64,000 bases of DNA, from NCBI RefSeq assembly GCF_000243115.2, contig NZ_CP007035.1, forward strand, positions 3,472,001-3,536,000. Reading direction: 5' to 3'. Origin of the DNA: Niabella soli DSM 19437 (GTDB lineage: Bacteria > Bacteroidota > Bacteroidia > Chitinophagales > Chitinophagaceae). The notes below the pieces were generated by a model. That model had not been told where the DNA came from and did no database searches. It saw only the letters and a program-made list of their open reading frames with translations. Below, in pieces: positions 13,781 through 37,182 of this stretch (position 1 is its first letter; every line of letters begins with the position of its first letter). The position numbers were made by a program, and so were the translations under genes.

Positions 13781-15229
13781 CTAAAACCTCAGCGTCATCA
13801 CCGCACTACCCGGGATCGTAAGCAACGCTTTCTTATTGCCGTGCTGTAGATTAAACGAAGCGGCCGCATTATTTTCATTTAACAGGATCAAAACCTTTCC
13901 ACCTGAAGGTGTTATAAACGCTACGTTAGTGAGGCCGCTCACCTGGGAGCTTTCAATTCTTCTGGAACCAGCCGGAACAAATTTGGAGGCATGGGCAATA
14001 ATGTAGTAAGAAACATTCCGGGTAACGGTGGGGTTATTAATCGTTAAAGCTCCTTTGCATTGGGTACAGCCGCCCGGAGTATGTGGCTGATATAAGGGGT
14101 CATTGGCCAGGTTCCATTCGAGTGCAGACTTGCTCCAATTGTTCACCGTGCCGATAATTACATTTTTCACATGCCACAATAAATCACCTGCGAAGGTTCC
14201 GGTAGAGCCGGTCCATTGCTCCGTAAAATAAAGATTCTTATCCGGAAACCGCTCATGCAACTGGCCCATAGCGCTCACATCTCCCGCATACAAATGAAAC
14301 GCGGCACCATCCACATATTTTGAGGCCGCCGCATCCTGGTAAATGGTATCCGCATACAAAGGTTTGTCCAGGTTATGATCGTATACAACAATCTTTGTTG
14401 AAATGTTATTCTTTGCAAATGCAGGCCCCAGGCTGTTTTTGATAAAATCCCGCTGCATAACCGATGTCATATACATACTGGGATTATTGCCCGGATGATA
14501 GGGCTCATTCTGGGGCGTAATAGCAGTGATATTGATGCCTTCCCCCTGCATACCCTGAATATATTTTACAAAATACGCGGCATAGGAATCGTAATACTCC
14601 GGTTTGAGCGAGCCGCCTTTTGAATTGTTATTATCCTTCATCCATACCGGGGGACTCCAGGGGGTGGCTATAATTTTTAAATCAGGATTGATGGCAATAA
14701 TACTCTTTAAAATGGGTATAAGGTTTGTCTTATCCGGCTGCAAGCTGAATTTCGACTGGGTAATATCTGTTTGCCCTGTGGGGAGGTCATTGTACGAAAA
14801 TACAACTGAGTCCAGGTCTGACGCACCTATACTTAACCGGATATAACTGACCCCTATCGAATTATCTCCTTTGCCAAAGAGCTCATTTAGCAGGGCCGTT
14901 TTTTGATCCGCTGGCAACTGGTTGATGAGCACTGCGCTTCCCCCGGTAAGCGTATAACCAAAACCGTCGATGGTTTGATACTGTTTTGATGAATCGATCG
15001 TAATAGTTGGATAACCAGCGGAGGCAACATTGGCTTTACTATCTGTTTTTTGCAGCAAAGCCGATTGATCAGCTTTGGTGATCCAGACCTCGGGGTTCAG
15101 ATCAGCGGCCGCGGGTGTAGCGGGCGGAGGCGTGGTGCCGTTTCCCGGGTTTCCCTTTTTGTTACATTGTGCAGCCAGCGAAACGAAAGCAACAGCAATT
15201 GTAAAAAGAAAAATTTTGCTTTTATTCAT
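13781..15229 (-). CDS. GH30 family glycoside hydrolase, lipoprotein
   Basis: The start is taken at the ATG at 15229, giving 482 residues that begin with a lipoprotein signal (LAAQC); a longer frame from 15325 would hide the signal behind repeat-like sequence. The catalytic residues of GH30 are visible: acid/base Glu242 in TPQNEP and nucleophile Glu337 in YFTEQWTG, together with IDGFGYTLTGGSA and PWSPPVWMK. GH30 enzymes of Bacteroidota include endo-beta-1,6-glucanases and beta-glucosidases. With the lipid anchor it probably works at the cell surface or on the periplasmic face. It is the last gene of the 23-kb co-directional PUL run. Confidence 0.92.
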   Translation of the reverse strand: MNKSKIFLFTIAVAFVSLAAQCNKKGNPGNGTTPPPATPAAADLNPEVWITKADQSALLQKTDSKANVASAGYPTITIDSSKQYQTIDGFGYTLTGGSAVLINQLPADQKTALLNELFGKGDNSIGVSYIRLSIGASDLDSVVFSYNDLPTGQTDITQSKFSLQPDKTNLIPILKSIIAINPDLKIIATPWSPPVWMKDNNNSKGGSLKPEYYDSYAAYFVKYIQGMQGEGINITAITPQNEPYHPGNNPSMYMTSVMQRDFIKNSLGPAFAKNNISTKIVVYDHNLDKPLYADTIYQDAAASKYVDGAAFHLYAGDVSAMGQLHERFPDKNLYFTEQWTGSTGTFAGDLLWHVKNVIIGTVNNWSKSALEWNLANDPLYQPHTPGGCTQCKGALTINNPTVTRNVSYYIIAHASKFVPAGSRRIESSQVSGLTNVAFITPSGGKVLILLNENNAAASFNLQHGNKKALLTIPGSAVMTLRF

Positions 15230-15341
15230 GGTTGTTTTATTTGAATTTCTGAGATATGAGGCAAAAAAACTTAAGTGGTTCGTGCAGACACGAGCCATAG
15301 TTGCCGGCATTTCACTATTAACCATTCACTTCTCACTATTT

Positions 15342-17627
15342 TCACTTCGACCAATTTACCGTAGCCATTTTTACATCCCTGGAATTGCCGCCGATCATGA
15401 TGTCGAAAGCACCCTGCTCCCAATCGTATTTTAAAGTGCTGTTGTAAAACTTCAGATCCTCCGGAGTAATGTTGAATGTAACGGTTTTTGTCTCCCCTGC
15501 TTTAATCAGCAGTTTCTGAAATCCTTTCAATTCCTTCACGGGTCTTGAAATGCTGGCTACTTTATCCCGGATGTACAATTGAACGGTTTCCTGTCCGTCT
15601 ATCTTTCCGCTATTGGTGACTGCTATGCTGGCTTTTAAAGATTGAGTGCCTTTTAAGGAGGTAGCACTCAATTTCAGGTCGCCATAGCTGAAATTGGAAT
15701 AGCTGAGTCCATAGCCAAACGGATATACAGGGTCATTAGAAACGTCTAAATAATTGGAGCGAAATTTCTGAAACCATTTACCTTCCTCTAAGGGCCTGCC
15801 GGTATTCAGATGCGCATAATAAAGCGGGATCTGGCCTACATTCTGTGGGAAGGTCATCGTTAATTTTCCGGATGGATTCACCGTGCCAAACAGCACATCC
15901 GCAATAGCAGCCCCGGCTTCCGATCCGCCAAACCATACGTTTAGGATGGCGGGTACATTTTTATTTTCCCAACCCAGCGTCAGTGGACGACCCGTAAATA
16001 ATACCAACACCACAGGCTTCCCTGTTTTTAATAACTCCTTCAACAGCTCTCGTTGTATTTGCGGAATATTCAGGTCGGTCCGGCTGGCACTCTCACCGCT
16101 CATTTCGGCGGATTCACCCATGGCCGCGACAATCACGTCCGATTCGTTTGCAATCTTCAGGGCTTCTTTTTTCATTTCGGCTGCAGATCGTTTATCCCGG
16201 TTCAGCGTTTTTCCGAACATCGTAGCACGGTCTTCGAATGCCGTGTCGGCATCAAGATTGCATCCTTTTGCATACAATACAGCGCCATTATTTCCCAATG
16301 CCTGTTTTAACCCAGCCAGTACTGATACGGACCGATCCTGCACCGTGGCCACGCTCCAGGTACCCGCCATATTATTTGCTGCATCTGCCAGCGGGCCGAT
16401 CAATGCAATTTTCCCGGATTTTTTAAGGGGAAGGGTTTGCTGCTCATTCTTTAAAAGAACAAAGCTTTCTGCCGCAATTTTCCTGGCTATGTTTCGATGT
16501 TCAGGGGTAAAGATCTCTGTTTTCGCACGTTGCGCATTACAATATTTATAAGGATCGGTAAATAATCCTAATTTATATTTGGCTTCCAGCACGCTTTTAC
16601 AGGCCGCATTAATTTCAGTAAGTGTGATCTTTTTTTCATCCAGTGATTTCTTTAAGGTTTTCAAAAAACCTTCGCCCACCATATCCATATCCACGCCCGC
16701 TTTTAGCGCCAATGCCGAAACCGCCTGCAGATCGCCCATGCCATGTTCAATCATTTCATTGATGCCGGTATAGTCTGTAACCACAAAGCCTTTAAAGCCC
16801 CATTGTTTACGTAATACATCGGTAAGCAACCAGCGATTTCCTGTGGCCGGGATACCGTCTACTACGTTAAACGAGGCCATCACGCTGCCCGCGCCAGCAT
16901 CCACCGCAGCCTTATATGGCGGAAAATAATCATTATACATGCGCAGGTGGCTCATGTCAACGGTATTATAATCCCTGCCTGCTTCAGCGGCGCCATATAA
17001 GGCAAAATGTTTTACACAGGCCATAATATTTGTATTGGACGAATAGTTGCCCTGGTAGCCTTTTACCATGGCCTTTGCTATCTGAGAACCCAGGTAAGGA
17101 TCTTCGCCATTGCCTTCTGAAACTCTTCCCCAGCGCGGGTCACGGGCAATATCCACCATAGGGCTAAAGGTCCAGCAGATACCATCGGCGCTGGCTTCAA
17201 TGGCAGCGATACGGGCCGACTGTTCTACAGCCTTCATATCCCAGGTGCAGGAAAGCCCCAGTGGGATGGGGAAAGTGGTTTCATAACCATGGATCACATC
17301 CATGCCAAACAACATCGGTATTTTCAACCGGCTGTTCTCTACTGCCACTTTTTGTATCGCCCGGATCTTTTCAACACCCTTTATATTAAAGAGGCCGCCT
17401 ACTTTTCCTTCTTTTACATTTTTGCCAATATCGGAGTTGGTAGCCGTACCCGTGGTAAACTCGCCGGCGCTGGGCAGGTTCAGTTGCCCGATCTTTTCTT
17501 CCAGGGTCATTTTTTGCATTAAGCCGCTAATGAAGGCATTCATTTTGGCGTCGCCCGTTTGTGCCCCTGTTTTTATAACGGAGAAAATGATCAGCAGGTA
17601 TAACAGGACTATTCCTTTATGTTTCAT
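15342..17627 (-). CDS. GH3 family beta-glucosidase
   Basis: 761 residues with a signal peptide (ends near TGAQTGD), so periplasmic. The N-terminal TIM barrel holds the nucleophile Asp285 in VVTDYTGI and the KHFALYG motif. The alpha/beta sandwich (about 390-600) and the C-terminal fibronectin III-like domain (about 650-740, ETVQLYIRDKVASISRPVKELKG) are both present, as in BglX. GH3 enzymes of this form release glucose from beta-linked oligosaccharides. A B. thetaiotaomicron homologue of this family, encoded beside a GH144 gene, prefers beta-1,2-linked sophoro-oligosaccharides, which makes that linkage a candidate here. It lies 14 bases after the GNAT gene. Confidence 0.94.
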   Translation of the reverse strand: MKHKGIVLLYLLIIFSVIKTGAQTGDAKMNAFISGLMQKMTLEEKIGQLNLPSAGEFTTGTATNSDIGKNVKEGKVGGLFNIKGVEKIRAIQKVAVENSRLKIPMLFGMDVIHGYETTFPIPLGLSCTWDMKAVEQSARIAAIEASADGICWTFSPMVDIARDPRWGRVSEGNGEDPYLGSQIAKAMVKGYQGNYSSNTNIMACVKHFALYGAAEAGRDYNTVDMSHLRMYNDYFPPYKAAVDAGAGSVMASFNVVDGIPATGNRWLLTDVLRKQWGFKGFVVTDYTGINEMIEHGMGDLQAVSALALKAGVDMDMVGEGFLKTLKKSLDEKKITLTEINAACKSVLEAKYKLGLFTDPYKYCNAQRAKTEIFTPEHRNIARKIAAESFVLLKNEQQTLPLKKSGKIALIGPLADAANNMAGTWSVATVQDRSVSVLAGLKQALGNNGAVLYAKGCNLDADTAFEDRATMFGKTLNRDKRSAAEMKKEALKIANESDVIVAAMGESAEMSGESASRTDLNIPQIQRELLKELLKTGKPVVLVLFTGRPLTLGWENKNVPAILNVWFGGSEAGAAIADVLFGTVNPSGKLTMTFPQNVGQIPLYYAHLNTGRPLEEGKWFQKFRSNYLDVSNDPVYPFGYGLSYSNFSYGDLKLSATSLKGTQSLKASIAVTNSGKIDGQETVQLYIRDKVASISRPVKELKGFQKLLIKAGETKTVTFNITPEDLKFYNSTLKYDWEQGAFDIMIGGNSRDVKMATVNWSK

Positions 17628-17641
17628 TGTTGTCCTTTTTA

Positions 17642-18154
17642 TTAGTTAAGCATTTTTTTCATTAAAATATCTTTCTGTGGGTCAGTTCCTAACAGGAAAA
17701 CGTGGGTGTCAAATGCCACGAACCCGTTTTTCTGGTAAAACCGGATGGCTGCTTCATTCTGCTCCCACACACCCAGCCACAGATACTCTTTTTTATGCTC
17801 CTCTGCCACCTCAACAGCGGTTTGTAAGAGCCGTTTTCCCAACCCTTTTCCTTTTGTGAATGCTGCCACATAGATCCGTTCCAGTTCAAGGCTGCGCGGA
17901 TCGTTAAGGTCTGTTTGTGCGGGGCTCAGATTCAACTTTATATACCCGGCGAGCTCTTTATTTTCTTCTATAAGATAATACAAAACATGGGCGCTTTGCA
18001 GGTCTTTTTTAAAATTAGCCGTTGAAAAAACCTCGTCATGATAGTGCTGCATATCAGCTGCGGTGTTGTATTTCCCATAGGTATCAGCAAACGTACTGCG
18101 GGCAAATGCCTGCAGGCTTTCCAGATCTGTTATGGCTGCTTTTCTGATCATCAT
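17642..18154 (-). CDS. GNAT family N-acetyltransferase
   Basis: 170 residues, cytosolic. The acetyl-CoA binding motif A is readable in LERIYVAAFTKGKGLGKRLLQTAVE (the key residues are Gly, Gly, Gly after Lys), followed by WLGVWEQNEAAIRFYQKNGF, the usual motif B. It overlaps the upstream SGNH gene by 4 bases (ATGA), so the two are translationally coupled. The acyl acceptor is unknown. It may be a passenger in the PUL or may act on an amino sugar or amino compound. Confidence 0.88.
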   Translation of the reverse strand: MMIRKAAITDLESLQAFARSTFADTYGKYNTAADMQHYHDEVFSTANFKKDLQSAHVLYYLIEENKELAGYIKLNLSPAQTDLNDPRSLELERIYVAAFTKGKGLGKRLLQTAVEVAEEHKKEYLWLGVWEQNEAAIRFYQKNGFVAFDTHVFLLGTDPQKDILMKKMLN

Positions 18155-18807
18155 TTTTTTAAATAGGGCTGTATGATTTTCTGCCAGATATGGTAGCCTC
18201 CGGCATTCATATGCAGACTGTCGCTGAGAAAGATCGAGTGCTTCGGCTTTCCGTTTTCGCCCAGCATTGCAGGAAACACATTGATATAACGGGCATCCTT
18301 TTGTCTCATAATAAAGGCTTTTATGGCCGTATTGGCTTTCTGTATGTTTGAAAAGTACTGCATGCGGGAAGGGCTTGGTTTTATCGAAATAAAAGCCACC
18401 GGTACTTTTTTATTGTATTCCCTGATAAGGTGGTACAGTTGTTTAAAACGGCTTACGGCACTATCGGCAGGTGTTGCATTATGCGCCAGGTCGTTCTCTC
18501 CACAATAGATCACAATTTGCCGGGGCTTATAAGCAGGCACCAGGTCATTAAAATAATAGATTAGATCCTTTAATGTAGATCCGCCAAACCCGCGGTTAAT
18601 AATAGTATAGCCCGGAAAATAATCAGCTACATCTTTCCATTTTGTAAAGGAAGAGCTTCCGATGAAGAGGATAGCATTTTTGGGCGGCGGCGTTTGCCGG
18701 TCTAATTCTTTGAAATGCTGGATGTCCTGGTAAAAAGGAGGTTCCTGGGCGTTAATAAATCCTGTAATCACAAATAATAATCCCAGTAAGAAAGTGCCTT
18801 TTTTCAT
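18151..18807 (-). CDS. Secreted SGNH/GDSL-type hydrolase
   Basis: 218 residues with a signal peptide ending INAQ. The SGNH blocks are present: catalytic Ser in FIGSSSFTKW, Gly in RGFGGSTLKDL, Asn in GENDLA, and the Asp/His pair in DSLHMNAGGY. This resembles the Bacteroidota family of small periplasmic carbohydrate acetylesterases and lysophospholipase-like hydrolases. In a PUL the likely role is to remove acetyl or other acyl groups from the glycan. It overlaps the GNAT gene and follows the GH43-like gene after a 126-base spacer. Confidence 0.9.
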   Translation of the reverse strand: MKKGTFLLGLLFVITGFINAQEPPFYQDIQHFKELDRQTPPPKNAILFIGSSSFTKWKDVADYFPGYTIINRGFGGSTLKDLIYYFNDLVPAYKPRQIVIYCGENDLAHNATPADSAVSRFKQLYHLIREYNKKVPVAFISIKPSPSRMQYFSNIQKANTAIKAFIMRQKDARYINVFPAMLGENGKPKHSIFLSDSLHMNAGGYHIWQKIIQPYLKK

Positions 18808-18933: not shown

Positions 18934-20796
18934 TCAATCCACTTTTATTGCTTCACTGCGTTTGCTCACCCCGTTCTCATTGATGGCTTCAATGCTGTAG
19001 TAATAGGGCTTTTGCGCGTCCATAGCCTTCATCCAGTATTCATTATTAGCATGCACCATGATGCAGTTGTACTGCTTGTGTGGCGCAATTCCATAATAAA
19101 TATTATACGCATACGCATCATCCGCTGGCCGCCATTTGATGTAAGCACTTCGCTTATCTTTTGGAGTACGCAATACAATAAAATCTCTTACCTCCTTTGG
19201 CGGGGCGCCATTGCCCTTTCCAAATATACGCAACCCGCTGATGGCAAATTTGCCGGTGGGCATATGTATATTTTCCAGTTTTATAAACCGTGCGGCCACC
19301 GGCTTTTTTAATTCCACATAATCATGCGGTATATCCGTTTTATTATTGCTTTTGTCAACCAGTGTCTGCCATTTTTTTCCATCCAATGAATAATAAAGAA
19401 TGTACTGGTGGTACTGATCTGTAAATTTTCCCAGCCGGTCGGGGGCAACGTCCTGGTCGGCATAATTGATCTGAATGGCGTTTACTGTTGCAACCGCGCC
19501 AAGATCCGATGTTATCCATTCGCCTTTATTACCCGTTTGCGCGCTCCAATAGGTTTTGATCAGTTCATCCACCGCATTATTGGGCACATAATCGCCCAAT
19601 GTTGATGATACCTGAACCGGCTTATTATAATTCAGTAACATCCATCCTGTAAAAAGAGTGCGTGGGGTATCGCCGGCTTCACCATCCAAAGATGAAGGAA
19701 GGTAAGTGGGATAATCGCCGAATGCCGTATTGCAGTACATCAGACCGTCTTTATCAAACCCGGCAGGCCAGATGCCGATACGCCGCTCAAACGTATTTTT
19801 TACAGAAATGATGCCGGTGGAAACATGCCAGTAATTGTTGAAATTGTCACGGAAGGTGGCCCCGTGCCCCGCGCCCCTGATGAAGCCGCCGACCTTCATA
19901 CTTAAAGGATCCGATTGGGGAGTGAAAGGTCCCAATGGCGAATCACCCACTAGCACGCCATCCGCATACCCGCTGAACTCGGTGCCCGGTGCACCATATT
20001 GCAGGTAGTATTTTCCATTGTGTTTGGTCATCCAGGCGCCTTCGATAAACGGATCAAGGAATGTATTATCCATATGCTCTCCAAAGCGCTGCCAGCCATA
20101 GCGCCAGCTTTCGAGGAAGTACATTTCTTTTCGTGTGCCGAAAGGCTTCATAGTTTTCCGGTTCAGCTCTACGCCGTATAGAGGATATACATTGCTGCTT
20201 CCGTTGTACATATAAAACTTACCGTCATCATCGGTGAAAAAAGCAGGGTCCCATCCGCCGATCTCAAATGAATCTACCAGGGGTTTCCATTCATTTGCTT
20301 TGGGATTAGTGCTCATCCAGATGGTAAAGTTTCTGGTATAAGTGGATCCGAATACCAGCATAGTGTCGCCAATGATTCCCACTGCCGGCGCACAAAGCTC
20401 ATCATAGGTATTGGTGTTCCAGGGGCGCAGGAATTTTTTTGGGATGAATTTCCAGTTCAACAAATCGCTGCTCCACCAGTAGCCCCACTGGTTGGTGCTG
20501 AATAAATAATAGTCGCCTTTATAATTAACGATTACTGGATCTGCTGTGGCGCGGTGCCGGCCCCATTGACTGAAATTGGGTATAGGCGTGTAACCATAAT
20601 CGATATTGATAGGGTTACAATAAGTGGTCCTCACCCCCGGCTCCTCTCCCTGGGGGGAGGGGTGTTGAGCGGATACACTCAAAGAAAAAAATAAGAAGCT
20701 TACTAGTAGCACAGCCGTTGAAGGTATTGCGACCCAACGAAGCCGAAGAGCTACCCTGCAGCCGGGCAACAAAAAAATAAAAATACGCCTGGTCAT
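18934..20796 (-). CDS. GH43-like glycosidase with F5/8-type (discoidin) and fibronectin III-like modules
   Basis: 620 residues. The start at 20796 lies 2 bases after the GMC gene stop. The five-bladed propeller of GH43-type enzymes covers about 75-380: RATADPVIV (catalytic-base Asp region), GGWDPAFFTDDDG (pKa-modulating Asp) and FIEGAWMTKHNGKYYL (acid Glu). A discoidin-like module follows (about 390-525, WITSDLGAVATVNAIQI), then a fibronectin III-like end (AYIKWRPADDAYAYNIYYG). The N-terminus is odd: the signal region is followed by HPSPQGEEPGVR, encoded by a GC-rich palindrome that looks like a repeat inserted in frame. The family includes arabinofuranosidases, xylosidases and galactosidases; specificity cannot be given. 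Confidence 0.88.
   Translation of the reverse strand: MTRRIFIFLLPGCRVALRLRWVAIPSTAVLLVSFLFFSLSVSAQHPSPQGEEPGVRTTYCNPINIDYGYTPIPNFSQWGRHRATADPVIVNYKGDYYLFSTNQWGYWWSSDLLNWKFIPKKFLRPWNTNTYDELCAPAVGIIGDTMLVFGSTYTRNFTIWMSTNPKANEWKPLVDSFEIGGWDPAFFTDDDGKFYMYNGSSNVYPLYGVELNRKTMKPFGTRKEMYFLESWRYGWQRFGEHMDNTFLDPFIEGAWMTKHNGKYYLQYGAPGTEFSGYADGVLVGDSPLGPFTPQSDPLSMKVGGFIRGAGHGATFRDNFNNYWHVSTGIISVKNTFERRIGIWPAGFDKDGLMYCNTAFGDYPTYLPSSLDGEAGDTPRTLFTGWMLLNYNKPVQVSSTLGDYVPNNAVDELIKTYWSAQTGNKGEWITSDLGAVATVNAIQINYADQDVAPDRLGKFTDQYHQYILYYSLDGKKWQTLVDKSNNKTDIPHDYVELKKPVAARFIKLENIHMPTGKFAISGLRIFGKGNGAPPKEVRDFIVLRTPKDKRSAYIKWRPADDAYAYNIYYGIAPHKQYNCIMVHANNEYWMKAMDAQKPYYYSIEAINENGVSKRSEAIKVD
20625..20665. repeat. GC-rich palindromic repeat inside the GH43-like gene
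   Basis: CCTCTCCC (20643-20650) faces GGGGGAGG (20653-20660), giving a hairpin with one wobble in a stretch otherwise unlike the surrounding AT-richer code. On the coding strand it gives the residues SPQGEEPGVR between the signal peptide and the propeller. Palindromes of this sort (CTCTCCC...GGGGAG) are dispersed between genes in many Bacteroidota genomes. Confidence 0.55.
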
Positions 20797-20798: not shown

Positions 20799-22514
20799 TT
20801 ATAAAGTTCCTTTTTTTAGTTCATTTACCACATGATCCACGGCGCGCGCGGTGAGCGCCATATATAAAATAGACGGGCTCTGATTGCCGGTGCTTGTCAT
20901 GCAGGCCCCGTCGGTTACCAAAACATTTTTACATTGATGCAGTTGGTTCCATTCATTCAGTAAGGAAGTTTTAGGATCACGGCCCATGCGAATGCCCCCC
21001 ATTTCATGAATATCCAGTCCCGGCGGTTGTTTGCTGTCGTTGGTCTGTATATTGATAGCGCCTGCGGCTTCAAACATTTGTTTTCCCTGTTCTAAAAAAT
21101 CGGCTACCATTTTATCATCATTATCATCATACCCCACAGAGGTAATCAGCAAGGGCATGCCATAGGCGTCTTTTTCTTTATTGCTTAACCGGACATGATT
21201 GCTTTCTTTGGGAATGGTTTCGCCCTGCATATACATATACATGCCCCACCCACCTGGCTCTTCCAGACTTTGTTTATAGGCTGCGCCGATCCCTTCTGAT
21301 TCTTCGTAATATTTTGTTTTGCGATAGCCGCCACTGAAAATAACATAGCCACCTTTAAAATCGGTTTCGAGCTTTTTTAAATTCCGGTAGTTGGGGATCA
21401 CGCATTCCGTAATGCGGCGTACTTTATAATATTGATCTTCCATGCCCGGGAATTCAGCATTCATACTGCCCCTGTAATTATGAAAGCAAATGTATTTACC
21501 CATCAGGCCATTGTCGTTACCCAAACCATTGGGGAAACGTTTGGAGGTTGAATTAAGCAGGATCAGGTTGCTGTTCAACGCCGATGCATTTACAAAAATG
21601 ATCTTTGCATAAAACTCCATTGCTTCCTTTGTTTGCGCATCGATAACCCTTACCCCGATGGCTTTTTGCTGTTGCTCATCGTAGATAACAGAATGCACTA
21701 CGGAGAAGGGCCGGATCGTAAGATTCCCTGTTCTTTTTGCCCAGGGAAGCGTGGAGCTTACGGAGCTGAAATAGCCGCCAAACGGGCATCCGCGCATACA
21801 GCGATCCCGGTTCTGGCATTGGGTACGGCCTTGCTGCCGGTAAATATCTTTTTCTTCGGTAATATGCGCCCACCGGCCGGGGATGTAGTAACGCTGGTAT
21901 TTTTCCCAGATGGTTTTCTTAAAATGTTTTTCAACCGCATTAAATTCCATTGGTGGTAAAAATTCACCGTCCGGCATGGATTCAATATTTTCAACAGAAC
22001 CGCAAACACCGATAAAATTTTCGGCATGGCTATACCAGGGGGCAATGTCATTATAACGGATGGGCCAGTCCACTGCATAACCATAACGTTGCGGCGCCGA
22101 AAAATCCCAATCGCTCCAGCGCTGGCAGCTCCTGCCCCAGGTGAGCGATTTTCCGCCTACCTGGTAGCCCCGTATCCAGTCGAACGGTTTTTCCTGGATA
22201 TAAGGATGGTCTTTATCCTGGATAAAAAAATGTTTGGTCGCTTCATCGTACCCGGCTGCTTTTGAAATCAGCGGGTTTTGCCTTTTTTGCGCTTCCGTTA
22301 TTTGTCCGCGGTGGGGTAACTCCCACCGGTTCAGGTTCATGGTAGGATAATCTTTTAAATGCTCCACATTCCGGCCCCGTTCCAGTACTATAGTTTTCAA
22401 CCCTTTTTCGCAAAGCTCTTTTGCGGCCCAGCCGCCACTGATGCCGCTGCCAATTACAATGGCATCAAAAGTGTTGCTGTTATTATTATTTTTTATACCT
22501 GTTGAATCGGACAT
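20799..22514 (-). CDS. GMC family FAD-dependent oxidoreductase
   Basis: The ATG at 22514 gives 571 residues beginning just before the FAD-binding Rossmann motif VIGSGISGGWAAKEL; a TTG at 22568 would overlap NagB by 4 bases and is the alternative. Further marks are the cysteine-rich CQNRDRCMRGCPFGG segment found in gluconate and glucoside dehydrogenase-type GMC proteins, and the C-terminal substrate/FAD region HEMGGIRMGRDP with TDGACMTSTGNQSP. No signal peptide is present; related enzymes reach the periplasm with a Tat-bearing small subunit, which is not seen here. The probable role is oxidation of a sugar hydroxyl (for example C3), passing electrons to a cytochrome or quinone. Confidence 0.9.
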   Translation of the reverse strand: MSDSTGIKNNNNSNTFDAIVIGSGISGGWAAKELCEKGLKTIVLERGRNVEHLKDYPTMNLNRWELPHRGQITEAQKRQNPLISKAAGYDEATKHFFIQDKDHPYIQEKPFDWIRGYQVGGKSLTWGRSCQRWSDWDFSAPQRYGYAVDWPIRYNDIAPWYSHAENFIGVCGSVENIESMPDGEFLPPMEFNAVEKHFKKTIWEKYQRYYIPGRWAHITEEKDIYRQQGRTQCQNRDRCMRGCPFGGYFSSVSSTLPWAKRTGNLTIRPFSVVHSVIYDEQQQKAIGVRVIDAQTKEAMEFYAKIIFVNASALNSNLILLNSTSKRFPNGLGNDNGLMGKYICFHNYRGSMNAEFPGMEDQYYKVRRITECVIPNYRNLKKLETDFKGGYVIFSGGYRKTKYYEESEGIGAAYKQSLEEPGGWGMYMYMQGETIPKESNHVRLSNKEKDAYGMPLLITSVGYDDNDDKMVADFLEQGKQMFEAAGAINIQTNDSKQPPGLDIHEMGGIRMGRDPKTSLLNEWNQLHQCKNVLVTDGACMTSTGNQSPSILYMALTARAVDHVVNELKKGTL

Positions 22515-22564
22515 TATACTTCGATTTAAAAGTGAAATTATTTTATCCCTTAACCCGCAATTAT

Positions 22565-29372: not shown

Positions 29373-30203
29373 TTATTGTTTCCCGTTATAAAGGGCCTGT
29401 ATATCCGCATCGCTCAGTGCTGTTGTATAAACCCTGAACTGGTCTAAAGAGCCCTCCATAAAGGTCATCCATGTATTTTGACTGTTCGTATACGGGCTGG
29501 GACCTCCTATTGAAAATCCGTCAAAATTTCCCCAGGTTACATTACCCACTGTACCCACTGTATTGGTTTTAAACAACTGGCCATCGATATAACATTTTAA
29601 GGTAGACGATGAGCCGGTATAAGTAAAGGCGAGGTGATGCCAGGACCCGTTTAATACATTGGGCATCCTGTTTGCATTGGTATACTCTACCCAATTGTCC
29701 ATAAGGTAAAATTTAGCAGCGGCTAACGCGGTGGTACTTGGGTTGCCTGCATCTTCAAATTCCAGGAATAATTTTGTGTTGGTCCAGCTATAGCCTTTCG
29801 CATTCAGTGAAAAAACAAAATCGGTTCCTTTGCCGGCAGCCTGCGGTGTTTTTTTTATCCAAAAAGCGATGGTAAATGCTGTTAATGGGGAAGTAGAGGT
29901 GAACTCGTTCACGCCAGCATAAGAGGCATAAGAGGTATCGCTGCCCACATAGCATTTTCCTGATACACCCTCCCCGATGCCGCCTGAATTCACCGAAGGG
30001 AAATTAGCCCGCGTGCTGTCTACTGCATTCATTAAGGGATTTGTTGTAGTACCGTCAAAGGCAACATAAAACTTTAAAGGGCCTCCGGCGGGGTTCGCAT
30101 CTTTTGGATAATCACCCAATAGGGGGCGACTCATTTTTTGGCATCCAACTAATACTGCTGTCAGGAGCAATATGCTTGCTATATTTAAAAATAATGCTTT
30201 CAT
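29373..30203 (-). CDS. LamG/concanavalin A-like domain lipoprotein
   Basis: 276 residues with a lipoprotein signal (LTAVLVGC, Cys21). The rest is a laminin G/concanavalin-like jelly roll: FYVAFDGTTTNPL, FTIAFWIKKTP, GSWHHLAFTYTGSSSTLKCYIDGQL, GFSIGG and SLDQFRVYTTALSDADIQALYNG, the usual closing motif of LamG_3 domains. It follows the SusD gene by 24 bases, the position normally taken by a surface glycan-binding protein (SusE/F-like role). A binding function is therefore likely; no catalytic residues are evident. Confidence 0.88.
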   Translation of the reverse strand: MKALFLNIASILLLTAVLVGCQKMSRPLLGDYPKDANPAGGPLKFYVAFDGTTTNPLMNAVDSTRANFPSVNSGGIGEGVSGKCYVGSDTSYASYAGVNEFTSTSPLTAFTIAFWIKKTPQAAGKGTDFVFSLNAKGYSWTNTKLFLEFEDAGNPSTTALAAAKFYLMDNWVEYTNANRMPNVLNGSWHHLAFTYTGSSSTLKCYIDGQLFKTNTVGTVGNVTWGNFDGFSIGGPSPYTNSQNTWMTFMEGSLDQFRVYTTALSDADIQALYNGKQ

Positions 30204-30227: not shown

Positions 30228-31799
30228 CTATGGCCATTCCGGGTTTTGCTTCAACACGGGTACACCATTCACTTTTGAAAGATCGATCGCTTTTTGCGGT
30301 ATGGGGTAATACCGGCACCGGTTCGTATAACCAAGGCTTCCTAATTCAGTCTGGGCATCGCCCCATCTTACCAGGTCAAAGAAGCGGTATCCTTCCATGG
30401 CAAACTCGAATCTTCTTTCATTTTTTATGGCCGTGCGCATTTGGGCCTGGTTGGCGAAAGCAATTTTAGGTACGATCGTTCTGGCCGGGCCAAGGTTGCC
30501 GCTTGCACGGTTTCTGATCAGTTCCAGGTTGGTTGCTGCGGTGGCTCCATCTCCCATTTCATTACTCGCTTCGGCCAGCATTAAGATCACATCAGCATAG
30601 CGCAATTGGCGGTGACTGATCCAGGAGGCATTACCTCCTCCAATGGTTCCTGTAAGGGCCCGCATCTGTGGATCAGAATACACTTTTTTGTTCCAATAGG
30701 GCTGGTCCAAACCGGGTCCCGGATTATAGGCAGGCAAGGTAGCGCCATAGCCGCCTTGTGTGGGACCGCCGTCAGACTGGCCCGAGTATAAGATGGTCAT
30801 GCGTTTTCTTGGATCACTATCATCCCAGGCATCCACCAGTTTTTGTGTAGGCGTGTTCCAGCCCCAGCCCAAATTCCATTCTTTGGCGGCGCCGCCCTGG
30901 CGTACATTCTGGCTGGTGCCCCAATTGGATCCCTGATTGGGAACGAGGTTTTTGCCTTGCAGGTTTTGGTGCTCCAAAATTGATTCAGCACTATTTTTTC
31001 CGGCGCCGTCCAACCCATCTTTCCATATATCATAAAAGTTAGGCAATAAGCTGTATTGATTGGATGCAACAACTTCATTACAAAGACTCACCACCTTTGC
31101 CCAGTTGGCTCTGAATAAATAAGTTTGTGCCCAAAGCGTGTTAACGGCGCCTTTAGTAAGCCTGCCCGGATAAGGATTACTGGTACCCACTTCCCAGGTT
31201 TGCGGAAGATAGTCCAGCGCCTTGGCTAAATCCGCATCAATTTGCGCATAAATATCCGCCACCGGTGATTTGGGTTTGATGCCATCAATGGCGTTGGTAA
31301 AATAAAAATTGATCAATGGCACCTCCCCATAAGTACGCACCAGGTCAAAAAAGGAAAACGCCCTGAAAAATAACGCTTCTCCAACATTGCGCAGGGAGCT
31401 TTTGTCGGTCATTTTTAATGAGTCGGCAAAATAGATCTCTTTATTTGCCTGGTTAATTAACGTGTAATGATCATTCCAGAAAGTATTGGGCGCCCAGTCG
31501 TCTTTTGAATACTGAAAGGTTTCAAACTCCGCATTTACTTCCGCCCCATCCGTAGCACTGCTTCCCTTTTGGGCATCATCATCACGGATGCTCATAAAGT
31601 CCAGCCAGGGCAACTCGTTCAGCCCTGCATAAGTATTAAAGGTGTTATATAAGCCCATGCTTTGTGCTTCCAATACACCCTGGTGCAGGTCGTCCAGGGT
31701 TTGCGTAAGCGGTTTCCGGTCGAGGAATTTTTTACATCCTGTAAAAAAAGCCAGCCCGGCAAAAGCGCTTAACAAGAGTATTATAGTATTTCGTTTCAT
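30228..31799 (-). CDS. SusD/RagB family outer-membrane lipoprotein
   Basis: 523 residues with a lipoprotein signal (FFTGC) and the standard N-terminus KKFLDRKPLTQTL. The RagB/SusD helical framework is clear: EALFFRAFSFFDLVRTYGEVPLI, then the C-terminal RQLRYADVILMLAEASNEMG and NERRFEFAMEGYRFFDLVRWGDA. It binds the glycan at the cell surface together with the SusC encoded just upstream (109-base gap). It belongs to the sigma/FecR-controlled PUL. Confidence 0.95.
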   Translation of the reverse strand: MKRNTIILLLSAFAGLAFFTGCKKFLDRKPLTQTLDDLHQGVLEAQSMGLYNTFNTYAGLNELPWLDFMSIRDDDAQKGSSATDGAEVNAEFETFQYSKDDWAPNTFWNDHYTLINQANKEIYFADSLKMTDKSSLRNVGEALFFRAFSFFDLVRTYGEVPLINFYFTNAIDGIKPKSPVADIYAQIDADLAKALDYLPQTWEVGTSNPYPGRLTKGAVNTLWAQTYLFRANWAKVVSLCNEVVASNQYSLLPNFYDIWKDGLDGAGKNSAESILEHQNLQGKNLVPNQGSNWGTSQNVRQGGAAKEWNLGWGWNTPTQKLVDAWDDSDPRKRMTILYSGQSDGGPTQGGYGATLPAYNPGPGLDQPYWNKKVYSDPQMRALTGTIGGGNASWISHRQLRYADVILMLAEASNEMGDGATAATNLELIRNRASGNLGPARTIVPKIAFANQAQMRTAIKNERRFEFAMEGYRFFDLVRWGDAQTELGSLGYTNRCRYYPIPQKAIDLSKVNGVPVLKQNPEWP

Positions 31800-31908: not shown

Positions 31909-34900
31909 TTAAAAGCTAACATTTAAACCAAAAGTGGTAACTCTTGGTATGGCGCCCCCGGCAAAATCGAACCCGAAAGCAGTAGCATCGCCACCAAACT
32001 CCGGTGTATAGCCGTTATTGCGCTTCCATGTTTTCAGGTTTTGCACGTTTGCAAAAATCTTCAGCCCTTTAATCCAGGAGCTATGCAGCAGTCTTTGACT
32101 AAAGGCATAGGCCAGGTTCACGTTTCTTAATCTGAAATAGCTGCCATCCTCAATATTATAGGTAGAGCCGTTATAGTTGAACCGGTCTCCCTGGCTCAAA
32201 ATAGGCGCCCAATTGGATGTACCAGGGCCATGCCACCTGTCTAACTGAAGGGCGGCATAATTCACTCTTTGGAAGGGAGACTCTAAGGAAGCCCAGGTTC
32301 TGAACACATCATTACCATATACGCCACCCATGTCAACCGACAGGGAAACCTGTTTGTAGTTTAAATTTACAGAGGTGCCATATGTAAACTTGGGCGTAGG
32401 GTTACCAATAATCGTACGGTCGTCCGCAGTAATGACCCCATCGCCATTTACGTCCTTAAACTTAAAATCGCCCGGCCGGTAGGCTCCAATACTTGAGGCT
32501 ACCGGTGATGATAAGATATCAGCATAGCTCTGGTAGATACCGTCTACCACATAACCATAAAAGGAGCCAATGGGTTGCCCAACGATGGTACGGGCTTCGG
32601 CTGCACCATTATTCATAAATGTTCTGGGTAAGAATCCTCCGGGAATATCAGGGGCCAGGCTCAGCACTTTGTTTTTAAGAAAAGTGATATTGCCCGCAAC
32701 GTTCAATGAAAAGTCTTTTGACAACTGCTGATTCCAACTGGCACTAAACTCTTCCCCCCAGTTTTTAATGCTGCCGCCGTTTTCCAACAGGTCGTTTATT
32801 CCCTGGACCGACCTGTTGATATAGGTCATCAGGTTTTTAGTTACTTTGTCAAAATAATTAAATTCAAAATGCAGCCGGTTATCAAAAGCAGTTAACTCAA
32901 CGCCCACTTCTTTTGCATGCACGGTTTCCCATTTTAAATCAGGATTGGGCTGGTAGGCATTTTGGGCGGCATTGCTGATATTGGTTCCAAATGGGGCGCC
33001 TTTATTGGTAAGAAGATTAGGATACATGGGATAAGGAATAGGGCTTCCGTCCAACCTTGTAGCCGTTTGGTTTCCTAATACGCCGATGGATCCTTTTAGC
33101 TTCAGGAAGTTAATGGCGGTTATATCCTGCATAAACGCTTCTTTGGTAAGCTCCCACCCGGCGCCTACGGCCCAATAGAGCTGGTTCCTGTTTTTAGCGG
33201 GCAGTTGAGAGGAAGCGTCGTTACGCAGCGAAGCGTTTAAATAATACTTGTTCTTGTAATTGTATAACACCCGCGCTAACCCGGAAACGGTGGTATATTC
33301 ATATTGGTTGGTGCTGCCGGGATCAACGGTTGTAATGGAGGGATCGTTAAACCCGGAGTTCAGGTACCAGAACCGGGGATCGTTGGGAATGGGCCGGGCA
33401 GAGGAACCGGAGGTAAATTGTTTGGCTATTGCGCCGGTAAGAAATGATCCGTAATAATAGGTAGTAAACCCTGCGGTGGCGGTCAGGTTATGATCTCCAA
33501 ACCGGTTCTTATAGGTTAACACATAGTCCTGCTGAAATTTTTTCCAGTTATTCTGGTTCTGCGTAACAGATGTTAACGTACTGTAGAGATAGGGGTTATC
33601 CGTAATGGGGTCGTACGCATAATACAGGGGCTGATACACGCGTTTATCCTGGTTACTGAAATCTGCATACCAGGTGGGCCTGAAATTAAAATGTTTTAAG
33701 AAATTGATGTCGACGTATACATTGCCTACATACCGGTAGATGTAGTCTCGCTGGGTGTTCCAGGTGTTCTCTACTTCCAGAACGGGGTTTACCACACCAG
33801 AGTTTTGTAGGGTGGTAGCTAATCCGGAATAAATATTCATCATTACGCTGTCGCCAGTGTAGGGGTCTGCCACCTTAAACTGTTTGGTACCGGCATATAC
33901 ATTGGGCATCACCTTCCTTGCGTTATCCAGAACACTGGTTGCATCATATGGATTTCTTTGCCGGGAGGCGTTAAAATTTACGCCCAGTTTGATTGCCTTG
34001 TTCAGCTTTACTTCATCATTAAACGACAATTGAAGTTTCTTAAGGTTCTCATGAATAACAATACCATCTTCATTGGTATAGCCTAGTCCAAAAAAGAAAT
34101 TATTTTTTTCTGAGCTGCTCGAAATGCTTAAATTATTTGAATTAAAAACCCCGGTCCGGGTAACGGCATTCACCCAGTCTGTATTGGAGTTTAATTGCGC
34201 ATAGGGGGGAGTAGCAACATTATTGTTTGCGTTTTCTTCTGCAAAAAGCGTATTAAAGCCATTGGCGTCCACCATCTTAATTTTGTCCACCAGTTTCTTA
34301 AAACCATAGTTGGTGCTGAAGTTAATAGTGGTTTGCCCTTTTTTGGCTTTCTTGGTGGTGATGGCAATAACGCCGGTAGCGCCTTTAACGCCAAAAATGG
34401 CAAGAGAGGAAGGGTCTTTTAATACTTCGATCGATTCAATGTCATTTGGATTTATGAAATCGATATTGTCATTAAAAATACCATCCACAATATAAAGGGG
34501 GTGCACCTGCCCGATACTCACTGTTCCTCTTATCCTGATGTCGGGAGCAGCCCCGGGCGTTCCACTGTTTACCACGCTTAACCCGGCCACTTTTCCCTGT
34601 AAGGATGCTACAGGGTTGGTGTTGGGCTTGTCCGCTACCTCTTTACCATCAATTTTTACTATTGACCCGGTAAGGTCTCTTTTATTTGCGGTACCATACC
34701 CGATCACTACTACCTGGTCCATGATCTTTTGGGAGGCCATCATCTTAACAGCAATGCTGGCGTTGCCATTGAGCGGATATTCCTGGTCTTCATATCCCAC
34801 CGCCGAAAATACCAATATGCTGTTGGCGCTGGGCACCGCAAGGGCAAAAGCTCCCTCTGTATTGGTTACTGTGCCCACATTAGTTCCTTTTACCTGTACA

Positions 34901-35328
34901 GATACACCTGCTAAAGGCGCGCCTGAACTATCGGTAACGGTACCGGCAACTCTTACATCTGCTTTTGCCAGCGGGTCTGCTTTTATGACAATGAGCCCGT
35001 TTTCCATTTTCTGAAAAGTAAGGTCGGTGCGAAAAAGCAATACCGGAAGAATTTCATCAATAGTGGCTTCTTTTGCATGAATGGTCACTTTGGTGTTCAA
35101 TTGCTCCAGGCTGCTGTTGTACAGGAACCGGTAAGCTGTTTTTTGTTCGATCGATTTAAAAACATCCGCAATGTCCGTTCTCGTAGCATGTAAGTTAATA
35201 CGCTGCTGCCCAAACCCGCGCGCGTGGATATTTAACGTAAAAAAAAGCATGAACAGCACCGTCAGTTTCATAGCGAGAAAAACTTTTTTTGTTTCGGGAA
35301 AGGTTGTTCCTCTTTTTAAGCATTTCAT
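31909..35328 (-). CDS. SusC/RagA TonB-dependent transporter with STN signalling domain
   Basis: 1139 residues. After the signal region the STN (secretin/TonB short N-terminal) domain covers about 45-120 (ADVFKSIEQKTAYRFLYN, ATIDEILPVLL), followed by a carboxypeptidase-like domain (VAGTVTDSSGAPLAGVSV), the TonB box/plug (DQVVVIGYGTANKRDLTGSI, LQGKVAGLSVV, IRIRGTVSIG, ILKDPSSLAIFGVKGATGVI-like motif) and the beta-barrel. The STN domain marks it as a transducer that signals ligand binding to the FecR anti-sigma factor encoded just upstream. The 129-base gap to FecR holds a strong hairpin. Confidence 0.95.
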   Translation of the reverse strand: MKCLKRGTTFPETKKVFLAMKLTVLFMLFFTLNIHARGFGQQRINLHATRTDIADVFKSIEQKTAYRFLYNSSLEQLNTKVTIHAKEATIDEILPVLLFRTDLTFQKMENGLIVIKADPLAKADVRVAGTVTDSSGAPLAGVSVQVKGTNVGTVTNTEGAFALAVPSANSILVFSAVGYEDQEYPLNGNASIAVKMMASQKIMDQVVVIGYGTANKRDLTGSIVKIDGKEVADKPNTNPVASLQGKVAGLSVVNSGTPGAAPDIRIRGTVSIGQVHPLYIVDGIFNDNIDFINPNDIESIEVLKDPSSLAIFGVKGATGVIAITTKKAKKGQTTINFSTNYGFKKLVDKIKMVDANGFNTLFAEENANNNVATPPYAQLNSNTDWVNAVTRTGVFNSNNLSISSSSEKNNFFFGLGYTNEDGIVIHENLKKLQLSFNDEVKLNKAIKLGVNFNASRQRNPYDATSVLDNARKVMPNVYAGTKQFKVADPYTGDSVMMNIYSGLATTLQNSGVVNPVLEVENTWNTQRDYIYRYVGNVYVDINFLKHFNFRPTWYADFSNQDKRVYQPLYYAYDPITDNPYLYSTLTSVTQNQNNWKKFQQDYVLTYKNRFGDHNLTATAGFTTYYYGSFLTGAIAKQFTSGSSARPIPNDPRFWYLNSGFNDPSITTVDPGSTNQYEYTTVSGLARVLYNYKNKYYLNASLRNDASSQLPAKNRNQLYWAVGAGWELTKEAFMQDITAINFLKLKGSIGVLGNQTATRLDGSPIPYPMYPNLLTNKGAPFGTNISNAAQNAYQPNPDLKWETVHAKEVGVELTAFDNRLHFEFNYFDKVTKNLMTYINRSVQGINDLLENGGSIKNWGEEFSASWNQQLSKDFSLNVAGNITFLKNKVLSLAPDIPGGFLPRTFMNNGAAEARTIVGQPIGSFYGYVVDGIYQSYADILSSPVASSIGAYRPGDFKFKDVNGDGVITADDRTIIGNPTPKFTYGTSVNLNYKQVSLSVDMGGVYGNDVFRTWASLESPFQRVNYAALQLDRWHGPGTSNWAPILSQGDRFNYNGSTYNIEDGSYFRLRNVNLAYAFSQRLLHSSWIKGLKIFANVQNLKTWKRNNGYTPEFGGDATAFGFDFAGGAIPRVTTFGLNVSF

Positions 35329-35357
35329 GTGATAAATGTTATTTTTTAATAGATATC

Positions 35358-35392
35358 ACATGGAGTGGTCCTCGGTAAAAAACACTCCATGT
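35358..35392 (-). promoter_or_regulatory. Hairpin between fecR and susC genes
   Basis: Perfect 10-base arms, ACATGGAGTG (35358-35367) and CACTCCATGT (35383-35392), with a 15-base loop lie in the spacer between the FecR stop and the SusC start. No T run follows in the sense direction. It could mark an RNA processing point or stabilise the susC part of the transcript, allowing more SusC than FecR to be made; alternatively it is a regulator site. Confidence 0.5.
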
Positions 35393-35457
35393 AAAGTTAC
35401 TTGATACATTCTGGTTTGTCTTCATCGTTTATTTTTTCAGTTATACAGATATAATAG

Positions 35458-36546
35458 TTAGTGCAGGGAGCTAATAACTATTACATTATTCTCTATTATA
35501 TAATTAAACGGATTTGCAATTTTTAAGGCTGCCAGCGCCTGCTGAACCGTCTCTTTTTCAAAAGACCCGTTAAAGTTTAATTGCTTCACCCGGTCATCCG
35601 CAAAACGGATCTCCACATTATACCATTGTTCCATTTTATTTGCCAGGGTTGCAAAGTCGTCACCACGAAACTCCAGCCGGTTATACATCCATGCAGTTTC
35701 CACACGTTCCTGCTCCTTCTTTGTACTGTCAATAGTTTCGATCTTTATAGCGTCCTGCTGTTGTTCATTGGCGGTAGCGTTGTCTTCAACAACTTCCTTG
35801 CTGGGGATGACAATTTTTTGATTAGGGTATAACAGTACCGGTTGAAAATTTTTGTTACCCTCATGGCGGGTAATACTTACCAATCCCCGGTAAAGCACGG
35901 TAGTGATATTTGCTTCACTGCTGTATGCCTTTACGTTAAAAGCAGTGCCCAGCACTTTTACATCAATCGTTCCGGCATGTACAATAAATGGATGCTTCCT
36001 GTCTTTTACCACGTCAAAAAATGCTTCTCCTTCCAGCCGTACTTCCCGGGTGGCGCCTTTAAAATCGGTCACATAATACAGGTTGGATCCACCATTCAGC
36101 CACACCTGGCTACCATCAGGCAATAGCATTTGTTTGCGCGCCCCTTTACCGGTTGCCAAAGCCAAGGCAACCGGATCCTTTTTTATGGCAACGGTAGCGG
36201 GCTTATATAAAAGGAAAGCAGCGGCCCCAATTACAGCAATCACAATACCGGCGGCAGCATAATACGCCCTGCGGCGGCGCTTTAGCTGTATAACCGGTGC
36301 GCTTTCCAGGCCCCTGGCTTTTTCAACAAGTTCGGTTGCCTTTCGGGCATAATCCGGCTCCTCCATTTTTTCTTCCGGTAGCTGCTTCTTGCCCAAAAGC
36401 GGGTATAGTAATTCAAATTGCTGTTTTAAGTCGGGGTATTGAATGAAGTATTTCCGCAGTTCCTGTTGTTCTGCAGGCGAAGCCTCGCCATAGATGCTGC
36501 GCGCCATCAATTTCCATATGTATGCATCATCTCTCATATATGACAA
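35458..36546 (-). CDS. FecR family anti-sigma factor
   Basis: 362 residues. A cytosolic N-terminal helical region (about 1-85, AEQQELRKYFIQYPDLKQQF) is followed by one membrane helix (YYAAAGIVIAVIGAAAFLLY, about 91-110). The periplasmic FecR domain contains GARKQMLLPDGSQVWLNGGS, FDVVKDRKHPFIVHAG and VLGTAFNVKAYSSE, and the C-terminal DUF4974-type end is GDDFATLANKMEQWYNVEIRF. It is the partner of the adjacent ECF sigma factor and receives the signal from the STN domain of SusC. The gene follows sigma by 66 bases. Confidence 0.94.
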   Translation of the reverse strand: MSYMRDDAYIWKLMARSIYGEASPAEQQELRKYFIQYPDLKQQFELLYPLLGKKQLPEEKMEEPDYARKATELVEKARGLESAPVIQLKRRRRAYYAAAGIVIAVIGAAAFLLYKPATVAIKKDPVALALATGKGARKQMLLPDGSQVWLNGGSNLYYVTDFKGATREVRLEGEAFFDVVKDRKHPFIVHAGTIDVKVLGTAFNVKAYSSEANITTVLYRGLVSITRHEGNKNFQPVLLYPNQKIVIPSKEVVEDNATANEQQQDAIKIETIDSTKKEQERVETAWMYNRLEFRGDDFATLANKMEQWYNVEIRFADDRVKQLNFNGSFEKETVQQALAALKIANPFNYIIENNVIVISSLH

Positions 36547-36612
36547 GGCCGTACCCGTTATTTACAGGACAGGAAGAATGGTGTTGATCTACTATATAAA
36601 TCCGGCTTTTTT

Positions 36613-37182
36613 TTAAATTTTTTTTGCTGATTGCTGTTGCGGGATGTTTTTGGGGATACCAAGGGCCTCGCTGATGCGTTTAACAGCGGTGGCCATTTGT
36701 ACATCAATGGTGTTTACCGATATATTCAGGATGGCAGCTACTTCTTTGTATTTAAGCCCGTCTTCCCGGATCAATTTAAAAATCATTTTGCAGCGGGGTG
36801 GTAATTGGTCAATAGCATGGTTTACCCTGTTTAGCATTTCATTGGTTACAGTAAAGGTATAAGGGTCATTGTTGATGACCGCCACATCAGGCTCCAGGTT
36901 ATCCAAACCGGAAACCATCCATTCCCGGGCCTGGGCCGAAAGCCTGTTGAGGGATTGATTTTTTACCGCAACATACAGGTATACGGAAAGATTTTCCACG
37001 TTACGCAGCAGCGATTGGCTGGTCCACACCTTCATAAAAACGTCTTCCACCACTTCATTTGCGATGTCGGAAACCCTAACCAATGAGAGAGAGAAACTGT
37101 AAAGACGCCGGTAGAATAATTCATATAGCCGGGTAAAAGCGGCTTCGTCTCCTTGTAAAATTCTTGTTTTCAGTACAGGCAA
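36613..37182 (-). CDS. ECF RNA polymerase sigma-70 factor
   Basis: 189 residues. Region 2 is visible as FTRLYELFYRRLYSFSLSL and VVEDVFMKVWTS, and region 4 as IDQLPPRCKMIFKLIREDGLKYKEVAAILNISVNTIDVQMATAVKRI, with the helix-turn-helix of Bacteroidota PUL sigma factors. It heads the minus-strand series that continues with FecR, STN-SusC and SusD, the standard trans-envelope relay for PUL induction. A TAnnTTTG box stands about 50 bases upstream. Targets are presumably the SusC promoter region and possibly the enzyme genes. Confidence 0.94.
   Translation of the reverse strand: MPVLKTRILQGDEAAFTRLYELFYRRLYSFSLSLVRVSDIANEVVEDVFMKVWTSQSLLRNVENLSVYLYVAVKNQSLNRLSAQAREWMVSGLDNLEPDVAVINNDPYTFTVTNEMLNRVNHAIDQLPPRCKMIFKLIREDGLKYKEVAAILNISVNTIDVQMATAVKRISEALGIPKNIPQQQSAKKI

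Follow-up and report, generated by a model that had tools for sequence, protein, structure and literature searches.

A sixteen-gene locus of Niabella soli predicted to use beta-1,2-glucan, with a linked set of candidate sugar-redox genes

Which glycan does a bacterium use through a gene block that joins glycoside hydrolases to redox proteins? The question is raised by positions 13781-37182 of the 64,000-nucleotide stretch of Niabella soli DSM 19437 analysed here (the window; the genome is a single contig of 4.70 Mb), where sixteen genes lie on the minus strand with spacings from a 4-base overlap to a 224-base gap. Read downward from 37182, they encode an extracytoplasmic function (ECF) sigma factor, FecR, SusC, SusD, a LamG lipoprotein, a multihaem cytochrome c, a GH144 protein with a Big_5 domain and a second GH144 protein, followed by a Gfo/Idh/MocA protein (Gfo), a NagB-like protein, a GMC oxidoreductase, a GH43-like protein with an F5/8 C domain (GH43L), and GDSL, GNAT, GH3 and GH30 proteins. 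These identities come from Pfam profile matches for all sixteen proteins (Table 1). An earlier note on this DNA had described sixteen minus-strand genes running from the ECF factor to GH30 with small gaps, and had named two GH144-like proteins, GH3, SusC/SusD and the LamG lipoprotein; all of this holds, the largest gap being 224 bases. The cytochrome (27955-29304) and the NagB-like gene (22565-23305) were not named there. SusC and SusD are adjacent and accompanied by glycoside hydrolases, which makes the locus Sus-type. We read it, with moderate confidence, as a polysaccharide utilisation locus predicted to target beta-1,2-glucan, perhaps branched or carrying ester groups like the periplasmic glucans of other bacteria, with a putative sugar-oxidation branch added.

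The two GH144 proteins carry this assignment. Both exceed the PF10091 cut-off of 27 bits by far (266 and 228 bits). The smaller, of 449 residues, aligns over nearly its whole length with the solved structures 5gzk (697 bits) and 5gzh (696 bits; labelled Endo-beta-1,2-glucanase), which we take to be CpSGL of Chitinophaga pinensis. The larger, of 559 residues, matches 4gl3 best (497 bits), with 5gzk at 467 bits. All seven CpSGL residues that we checked (D135, D139, E142, E211, F268, Y330 and D400) are retained in both proteins. The CpSGL residues given in PMC12102758 land on the right letters of 5gzh and 5gzk with an offset of 20; that paper assigns E211 the role of acid and considers E142 the most plausible base. 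An exolytic relative carries an additional N-terminal region (PMC8861115). The match of 5z06 to both window proteins starts only at residue 264, so we read both as probably endo-acting. On visual inspection, a lipobox is present in the larger protein, and the smaller begins with an ordinary signal peptide. Profile, closest solved relatives and conserved residues thus all assign the two candidates of the earlier note to GH144, and a placement outside that family was not observed. Through this identity its proposal of beta-1,2-glucan as the main substrate gains good support: a beta-1,2-glucan backbone is very likely.

The accompanying hydrolases bear on the form of the glucan. The GH3 protein, also reported in the earlier note, is of BglX type: it scores 955 bits with NF011678 (BglX; cut-off 666 bits), and its best solved matches are, in order, 3u48, 3u4a, 9urf, 5tf0 and, fifth, the periplasmic beta-glucosidase 5xxl, presumably the Bacteroides thetaiotaomicron GH3 enzyme from a GH144 cluster. 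GH30 had been proposed to handle beta-1,6-linked parts. Its top model is indeed NF053856, the BT3312 endo-1,6-beta-glucanase, with a score of 399 bits where the cut-off is 700, and its best solved match is 5ngk; we therefore describe it as related to endo-1,6-beta-glucanase and do not file it as a member, and the proposal is weakly supported. GH43L scores 81 bits with the Pfam GH43 profile (cut-off 32 bits). Its D86, D183 and E252 are invariant across 41 rows, the window protein included, and presumably fill the roles of the catalytic acidic triad. Against solved structures GH43L reaches only a weak best match of 50 bits, it matches no NCBIfam model, and a search for relatives in viral contigs found none.

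The gene set is not a chance assembly, because blocks of it recur among relatives. The block of GH144, Gfo, NagB-like, GMC, GH43L, GDSL and GH3 genes is found wholly or partly in genomes G011, G016, G024, G035, G049 and G053 and on L004, a contig of a metagenome-assembled genome. G012 has a GMC gene near partial GH144 frames, and that stretch holds no GH43L. The GH43L gene itself is present in 129 of 244 family genomes. We compared 40 stretches of relatives, each of at most 20 kb around GH43L, a span beyond which neighbours are missed. GH3 occurs in 36 of them, GH144 in 31, GDSL in 28, SusC and SusD in 18 each, GH30 in 17 and LamG in 12; less often we found DoxX (10), Gfo of the twin-arginine translocation (Tat) type (9), ASPIC/UnbV (9), GMC (8, one a distant paralogue) and the cytochrome (7, which is no rate, since at least 11 stretches were chosen with a nearby cytochrome visible). 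Approached from the other side, the best 63 GH144 rows among the matches listed (at least 604 bits) include 52 in genomes with a GH43L row; 38 share a contig with it, and 33 of these 38 lie within 30 kb. The GH43L rows used in this comparison have at least about 60% identity and cover 112 of the 129 genomes. Because of the 31 of 40 stretches and the 33 of 38 same-contig pairs, we conclude that GH144 and this GH43-like family travel together. An esterase and a GH43-like enzyme had been thought to set the locus apart; this finds no support, as GH3, GH144 and GDSL genes are regular neighbours of GH43L and GH144 loci are reported to be frequent (PMC6499787). More unusual is the redox set, mentioned in the earlier note only as 'redox proteins'.

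These counts also bear on two other substrates. A fungal or other beta-1,6-rich glucan could be the principal substrate, in which case GH30 and GH3 would do the main work and GH144 would be accessory; the top model of GH30 would agree with this, as would two Pedobacter relatives whose SusCD locus contains GH30 and the cytochrome but, within the stretch examined, no GH144. However, GH144 is the steadier neighbour of GH43L (31 against 17 of 40 for GH30) and the window holds two GH144 genes against one GH30, and we consider a beta-1,6-rich target very unlikely. A plain linear or cyclic beta-1,2-glucan, with GH30, GH43L and the redox genes as passengers or parts of general sugar metabolism, is rather unlikely. 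It would suit the 23 of 40 stretches that lack GH30 and the 32 that lack GMC, as well as the presence, some 23 kb away in the same genome, of a gene for a cyclic-glucan-synthase-like protein (2870 residues), which starts at about 60096 (+) and runs off the window end. Because of this gene, the organism may itself make such a glucan. Yet passengers would not be expected to keep GH43L within 30 kb of GH144 in 33 of 38 pairs, nor would they be expected to yield the single group formed by the linked GMC genes.

That group emerged from a tree of 39 GMC rows, drawn from stretches fetched for GMC, GH43L or cytochrome (one contig, from G039, is too short to judge linkage). All 15 copies lying at most 6 kb from GH144 or GH43L fall into one group of 16 (SH-aLRT 99, by a quick method), whose remaining member, from G022, is unlinked within the stretch examined. 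The linkage label needs 2 changes on the tree, against a mean of 12.3 in shuffles, and none of 500 shuffles came as low. The window GMC protein aligns over its whole length with the large subunit of fructose dehydrogenase (127 bits). Three cysteines are aligned, which we take to be the iron-sulfur cluster ligands of that enzyme; all three also appear in the motif list of the 39 aligned rows.

The first solved relatives of Gfo are 6nor, 6jw6 and 6a3f. We take the first two to be the antibiotic enzymes GenD2 and KanD2; the third is identical in sequence to 6a3i, a levoglucosan dehydrogenase whose product is a 3-keto sugar (PMC10066097). A NagB-like match occurs in 49 of the 244 family genomes. 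Of these matches, 41 are in genomes with a counted GH43L row and 19 on the contig of GH43L, with 15 of the 19 within 15 kb of it. Several relatives extend the set: G035, G049 and G226 additionally carry SDR, ROK, SIS, MetE-like, metallo-beta-lactamase (MBL)-fold and DoxX genes, and G053 carries the same genes except DoxX, for which no match was seen there, its NagB-like match lying on another contig. Genes for an SDR, a ROK kinase, a SIS isomerase, a MetE-like and an MBL-fold protein near GH43L were noted in L041 (G035), L044 (G049), L042 (G053), L088 (G226) and L090 (G037), and partly in L098 (G271); the MetE-like proteins of those stretches are 87-89% identical to that of G053.

Together with these genes of relatives, Gfo, the NagB-like protein and GMC may form a module for oxidation and salvage of glucosides. 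C3 is the position to which the relatives of Gfo point; oxidation there is a tentative proposal that falls somewhat short of an even call. The same genes could instead catabolise an amino or keto sugar standing next to beta-1,2-linked glucose in a heteropolysaccharide, a task for the NagB-like protein and Gfo and, in the larger relatives, SIS and ROK. The linkage of NagB-like genes to GH43L would fit, as would the SDR, ROK, SIS, MetE-like and NagB-like genes near GMC in G035, G049 and G226 (in G053 without NagB-like). We nevertheless regard such a substrate as quite improbable, with ROK, SIS and SDR missing from the sixteen window genes and found in only 2, 3 and 2 of the 40 stretches, respectively. 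A DUF1080 hydrolase inside the locus was considered and rejected, as none of 13 genome matches (12 above cut-off) lies within the window. These matches to the 3-keto-disaccharide hydrolase family elsewhere in the genome hint at a wide use of 3-keto sugars. Work from 2024 reportedly describes a 3-keto glycan pathway.

How well does a branched, decorated beta-1,2-glucan with an oxidative branch account for the whole locus? In periplasmic glucans of group 1, a beta-1,2-linked backbone bears beta-1,6 branches as well as phosphoglycerol, succinyl or phosphoethanolamine substituents (PMC10514313). The combination of GH144, GH30, GH3 and an esterase would fit such a form, as in the osmoregulated periplasmic glucans. 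Genes that could remove decorations occur in the 40 stretches, namely PhoD-like (4) and alpha/beta esterase (6) genes, one of each named by Pfam, and a PF01663 phosphodiesterase is present in G035 and G049 and, by similarity, in G158. Several points weigh against this reading. GH30 and GH43L do not suit an unbranched beta-1,2-glucan; we know of no GH43 activity that suits any beta-1,2-glucan, and GH43L is left unexplained by a periplasmic-glucan substrate. Pfam finds no phosphoesterase among the sixteen window genes. Most stretches with GH144 and GH43L lack GMC (present in 8 of 40), so oxidation would not be needed for the basic function. The linked GMC copies carry Ser where fructose dehydrogenase has Asn near the C terminus, and the window copy has no signal peptide evident by eye; the Gluconate_2-dh3 small subunit (PF13618) has three copies in the genome and none in the locus. 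With Gfo, none of the ten NCBIfam models listed reaches its cut-off; these include the levoglucosan dehydrogenase and glycoside 3-dehydrogenase models (NF052479, 122 of 650 bits; NF058563, 29 of 650; NF058561, 29 of 750). The NagB-like protein likewise stays below the cut-offs of the NagB/AgaI deaminase models (199 against 326 and 184 against 271 bits). On balance, a branched or decorated form of the glucan is nearly an even call.

The seven-haem cytochrome follows a logic of its own. Its homologues (E at most 1e-20) occur in 104 of the 244 family genomes, and among 30 homologous open reading frames (ORFs) filtered for at least five CXXCH motifs, seven motifs are present in 29 and six in the remaining one, which is truncated by the end of its stretch. 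Strong cytochrome rows (counted down to about E 1e-68, and leaving out a second copy of G175 on another contig than GH43L) coincide with GH43L rows in 52 genomes and share a contig in 26, the distance being at most 25 kb in 18 of these and at most 50 kb in 21; random placement would give roughly 0.7 within 25 kb across all 52. The order SusD-LamG-cytochrome on one strand is found in eight of eight loci whose SusD is 61-72% identical to that of the window, all eight having been picked with a cytochrome match there already known. In 15 GH144/GH43L stretches, none of 17 remote SusD genes (25-49% identity) is followed by a cytochrome within three genes. Selection does not explain why, in GH144/GH43L stretches free of the cytochrome, the 17 SusD genes all lack close similarity to that of the window.

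Two simpler assignments of the cytochrome were rejected. As a dedicated partner of GMC it would not be expected to be absent beside GMC in the stretches examined of G011 and G024, or present without GMC beside GH43L in G004, G214 and G138. Nor is it specific to GH144: in most of 20 further stretches (19 chosen for a cytochrome not close to GH43L, one holding the second copy of the N. soli genome itself), its paralogues adjoin other SusCD genes or none. One of the 20, L118 of G112, does contain GH144 genes. The order is not fixed, either. In L005, L006, L007, L122, L124 and L134 the cytochrome comes after a remote SusD (23-29%) of the same strand, and in L087 (G158) and L089 (G099) it and the GH144 genes occupy opposite strands. 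Because it is present after the close SusD, also after remote SusD genes elsewhere, and reversed in G158 and G099, we conclude that the cytochrome tracks a lineage of SusCD and not GH144 or GMC themselves. A role in surface electron transfer is our guess. A more far-reaching model would make this a hydrolytic-plus-oxidative locus, in which GH144 would cut decorated periplasmic glucans of other bacteria, a dedicated GMC dehydrogenase with Gfo as its partner would process the products via 3-keto sugars, and the SusC-SusD-LamG-cytochrome lineage would link glycan capture to surface electron transfer. We hold it to be distinctly unlikely; the way in which the eight loci were picked and the two reversed cytochrome genes lowered its odds slightly.

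For the locus read as a beta-1,2-glucan utilisation system, the following sequence of events can be proposed. The STN-like stretch of SusC, together with the ECF and FecR genes, suggests transport-coupled signalling, in which a signal from SusC would reach the ECF factor via FecR. Binding of the glucan would fall to SusD and the LamG lipoprotein; the lipoprotein GH144 would cleave it at the cell surface and SusC would import the products. In the periplasm, the second GH144, GH30, GDSL, GH43L and GH3 proteins may complete the breakdown. Gfo and GMC would then oxidise or reduce the glucosides, perhaps at C3.

The surroundings of the locus hold further glycan-related and redox genes. Four of the five genes of a second, possibly linked redox operon (those for PSD1/PSCyt, DUF1501, AP_endonuc_2 and PSCyt1-LRR) have homologues inside the GH144 locus of G049, at 49-72% identity, and no homologues of the operon were found in any of the 40 GH43L stretches. 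At 2978-3913, some 10 kb away from the GH144 locus, there is a PF01261 gene whose product bears a Tat signal, and G011 has a PF01261 homologue (64%) after a second SusC-SusD-GH30 unit just past its GH144 locus. A second SusC/SusD pair, at 8988-13720 (+), stands between the operon and the GH144 locus. Farther on, an M60-type peptidase gene (48162-49535, -) lies beside a third SusC/SusD pair (50101-55279, +), downstream of which genes for DUF4959/DUF5126/DUF5000 and DUF4998 proteins extend to 58283. For the GNAT gene, no homologue was found among the relatives' stretches compared.

Table 1. Genes of the locus and the neighbouring redox operon, with window coordinates
Feature	Coordinates	Strand	Basis or remark
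ECF sigma factor	36613..37182	-	Sigma70_r2/r4_2
FecR-type anti-sigma factor	35458..36546	-	FecR, FecR_C
SusC TonB-dependent transporter	31909..35328	-	N-terminal STN-like stretch 25.3 bits, below 28.4 cut-off
SusD	30228..31799	-	SusD_RagB, SusD-like_3
LamG-domain lipoprotein, probable surface glycan-binding protein	29373..30203	-	Laminin_G_3; lipobox by eye
Seven-haem cytochrome c (7 CXXCH), probable lipoprotein by eye	27955..29304	-	true start probably within ORF
GH144 with Big_5 domain, probable lipoprotein by eye	26275..27954	-	PF10091 228 bits; residues
GH144, near solved endo-beta-1,2-glucanase 5gzh/5gzk	24701..26050	-	PF10091 266 bits; 697 bits; residues
Gfo/Idh/MocA oxidoreductase, possible glucoside C3-oxidoreductase	23308..24489	-	profile and solved relatives
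NagB-like sugar-phosphate deaminase/isomerase	22565..23305	-	PF01182; NF001684 199 bits, below 326 cut-off
GMC oxidoreductase, fructose-dehydrogenase large-subunit type	20799..22568	-	profile, alignment, tree
GH43-like with F5/8 C domain	18934..20796	-	acidic triad candidates D86, D183, E252
GDSL esterase	18151..18807	-	Pfam
GNAT acetyltransferase	17642..18154	-	Pfam
GH3 beta-glucosidase, BglX type	15342..17627	-	Pfam, NF011678, solved matches
GH30, beta-1,6-glucanase-like	13781..15325	-	Pfam, NCBIfam model, solved match
Second redox operon, possibly linked	332..8366	-	aldo/keto reductase, PSCyt1-LRR, AP_endonuc_2 with Tat signal, DUF1501, PSD1/PSCyt cytochrome

Many Gram-negative bacteria produce beta-1,2-glucans, which play a part in osmoregulation, symbiosis and infection (PMC12102758). 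Little is known about the recycling of these glucans by other bacteria. The conserved GH43-like partner suggests that their breakdown includes a step not yet described, and the haem protein of the SusCD lineage and the sugar dehydrogenase group tied to GH144 would offer testable cases of redox chemistry within a Sus-type locus.

Among known systems, CpSGL is the closest enzyme (near whole-length alignment at 697 bits, seven of seven residues); the window locus differs by its pair of GH144 genes, of which one encodes a Big_5 domain and a probable lipobox. The beta-1,2-glucan clusters of B. thetaiotaomicron and Ignavibacterium album share the pairing of GH144 with GH3 and, in Ignavibacterium, a transport system, which is an ABC transporter there; the parts of PMC8861115 consulted name no GMC, Gfo or multihaem gene, and a search for GH43 in that paper found nothing. 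GH144-bearing loci of Bacteroidetes are reported to be abundant (PMC6499787), and GH144 loci are therefore a type already known; the additions described for marine loci are sulfatases, with no redox module mentioned in the parts consulted. The levoglucosan C3-oxidation pathway pairs a Gfo/Idh/MocA C3-oxidoreductase with a PF01261 beta-eliminase, and the window has Gfo and, about 10 kb off, a PF01261 gene; the parts of PMC10066097 consulted mention neither GH144 nor SusCD, and the tie to the window is distant sequence similarity only. The large subunit of fructose dehydrogenase (7w2j, 8k6k) resembles the window GMC in whole-length alignment and three cysteines, but at 127 bits only, without Gluconate_2-dh3 in the locus and with Ser in place of its Asn near the C terminus. 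In the open-licence literature, a narrow scope, we found no report of a GH43-like partner, a linked GMC group or a SusCD-linked cytochrome in a GH144 locus. New with respect to these systems are the GH43-like core partner, the linked group of GMC genes with its NagB-like companion, and the cytochrome that follows SusD and LamG.

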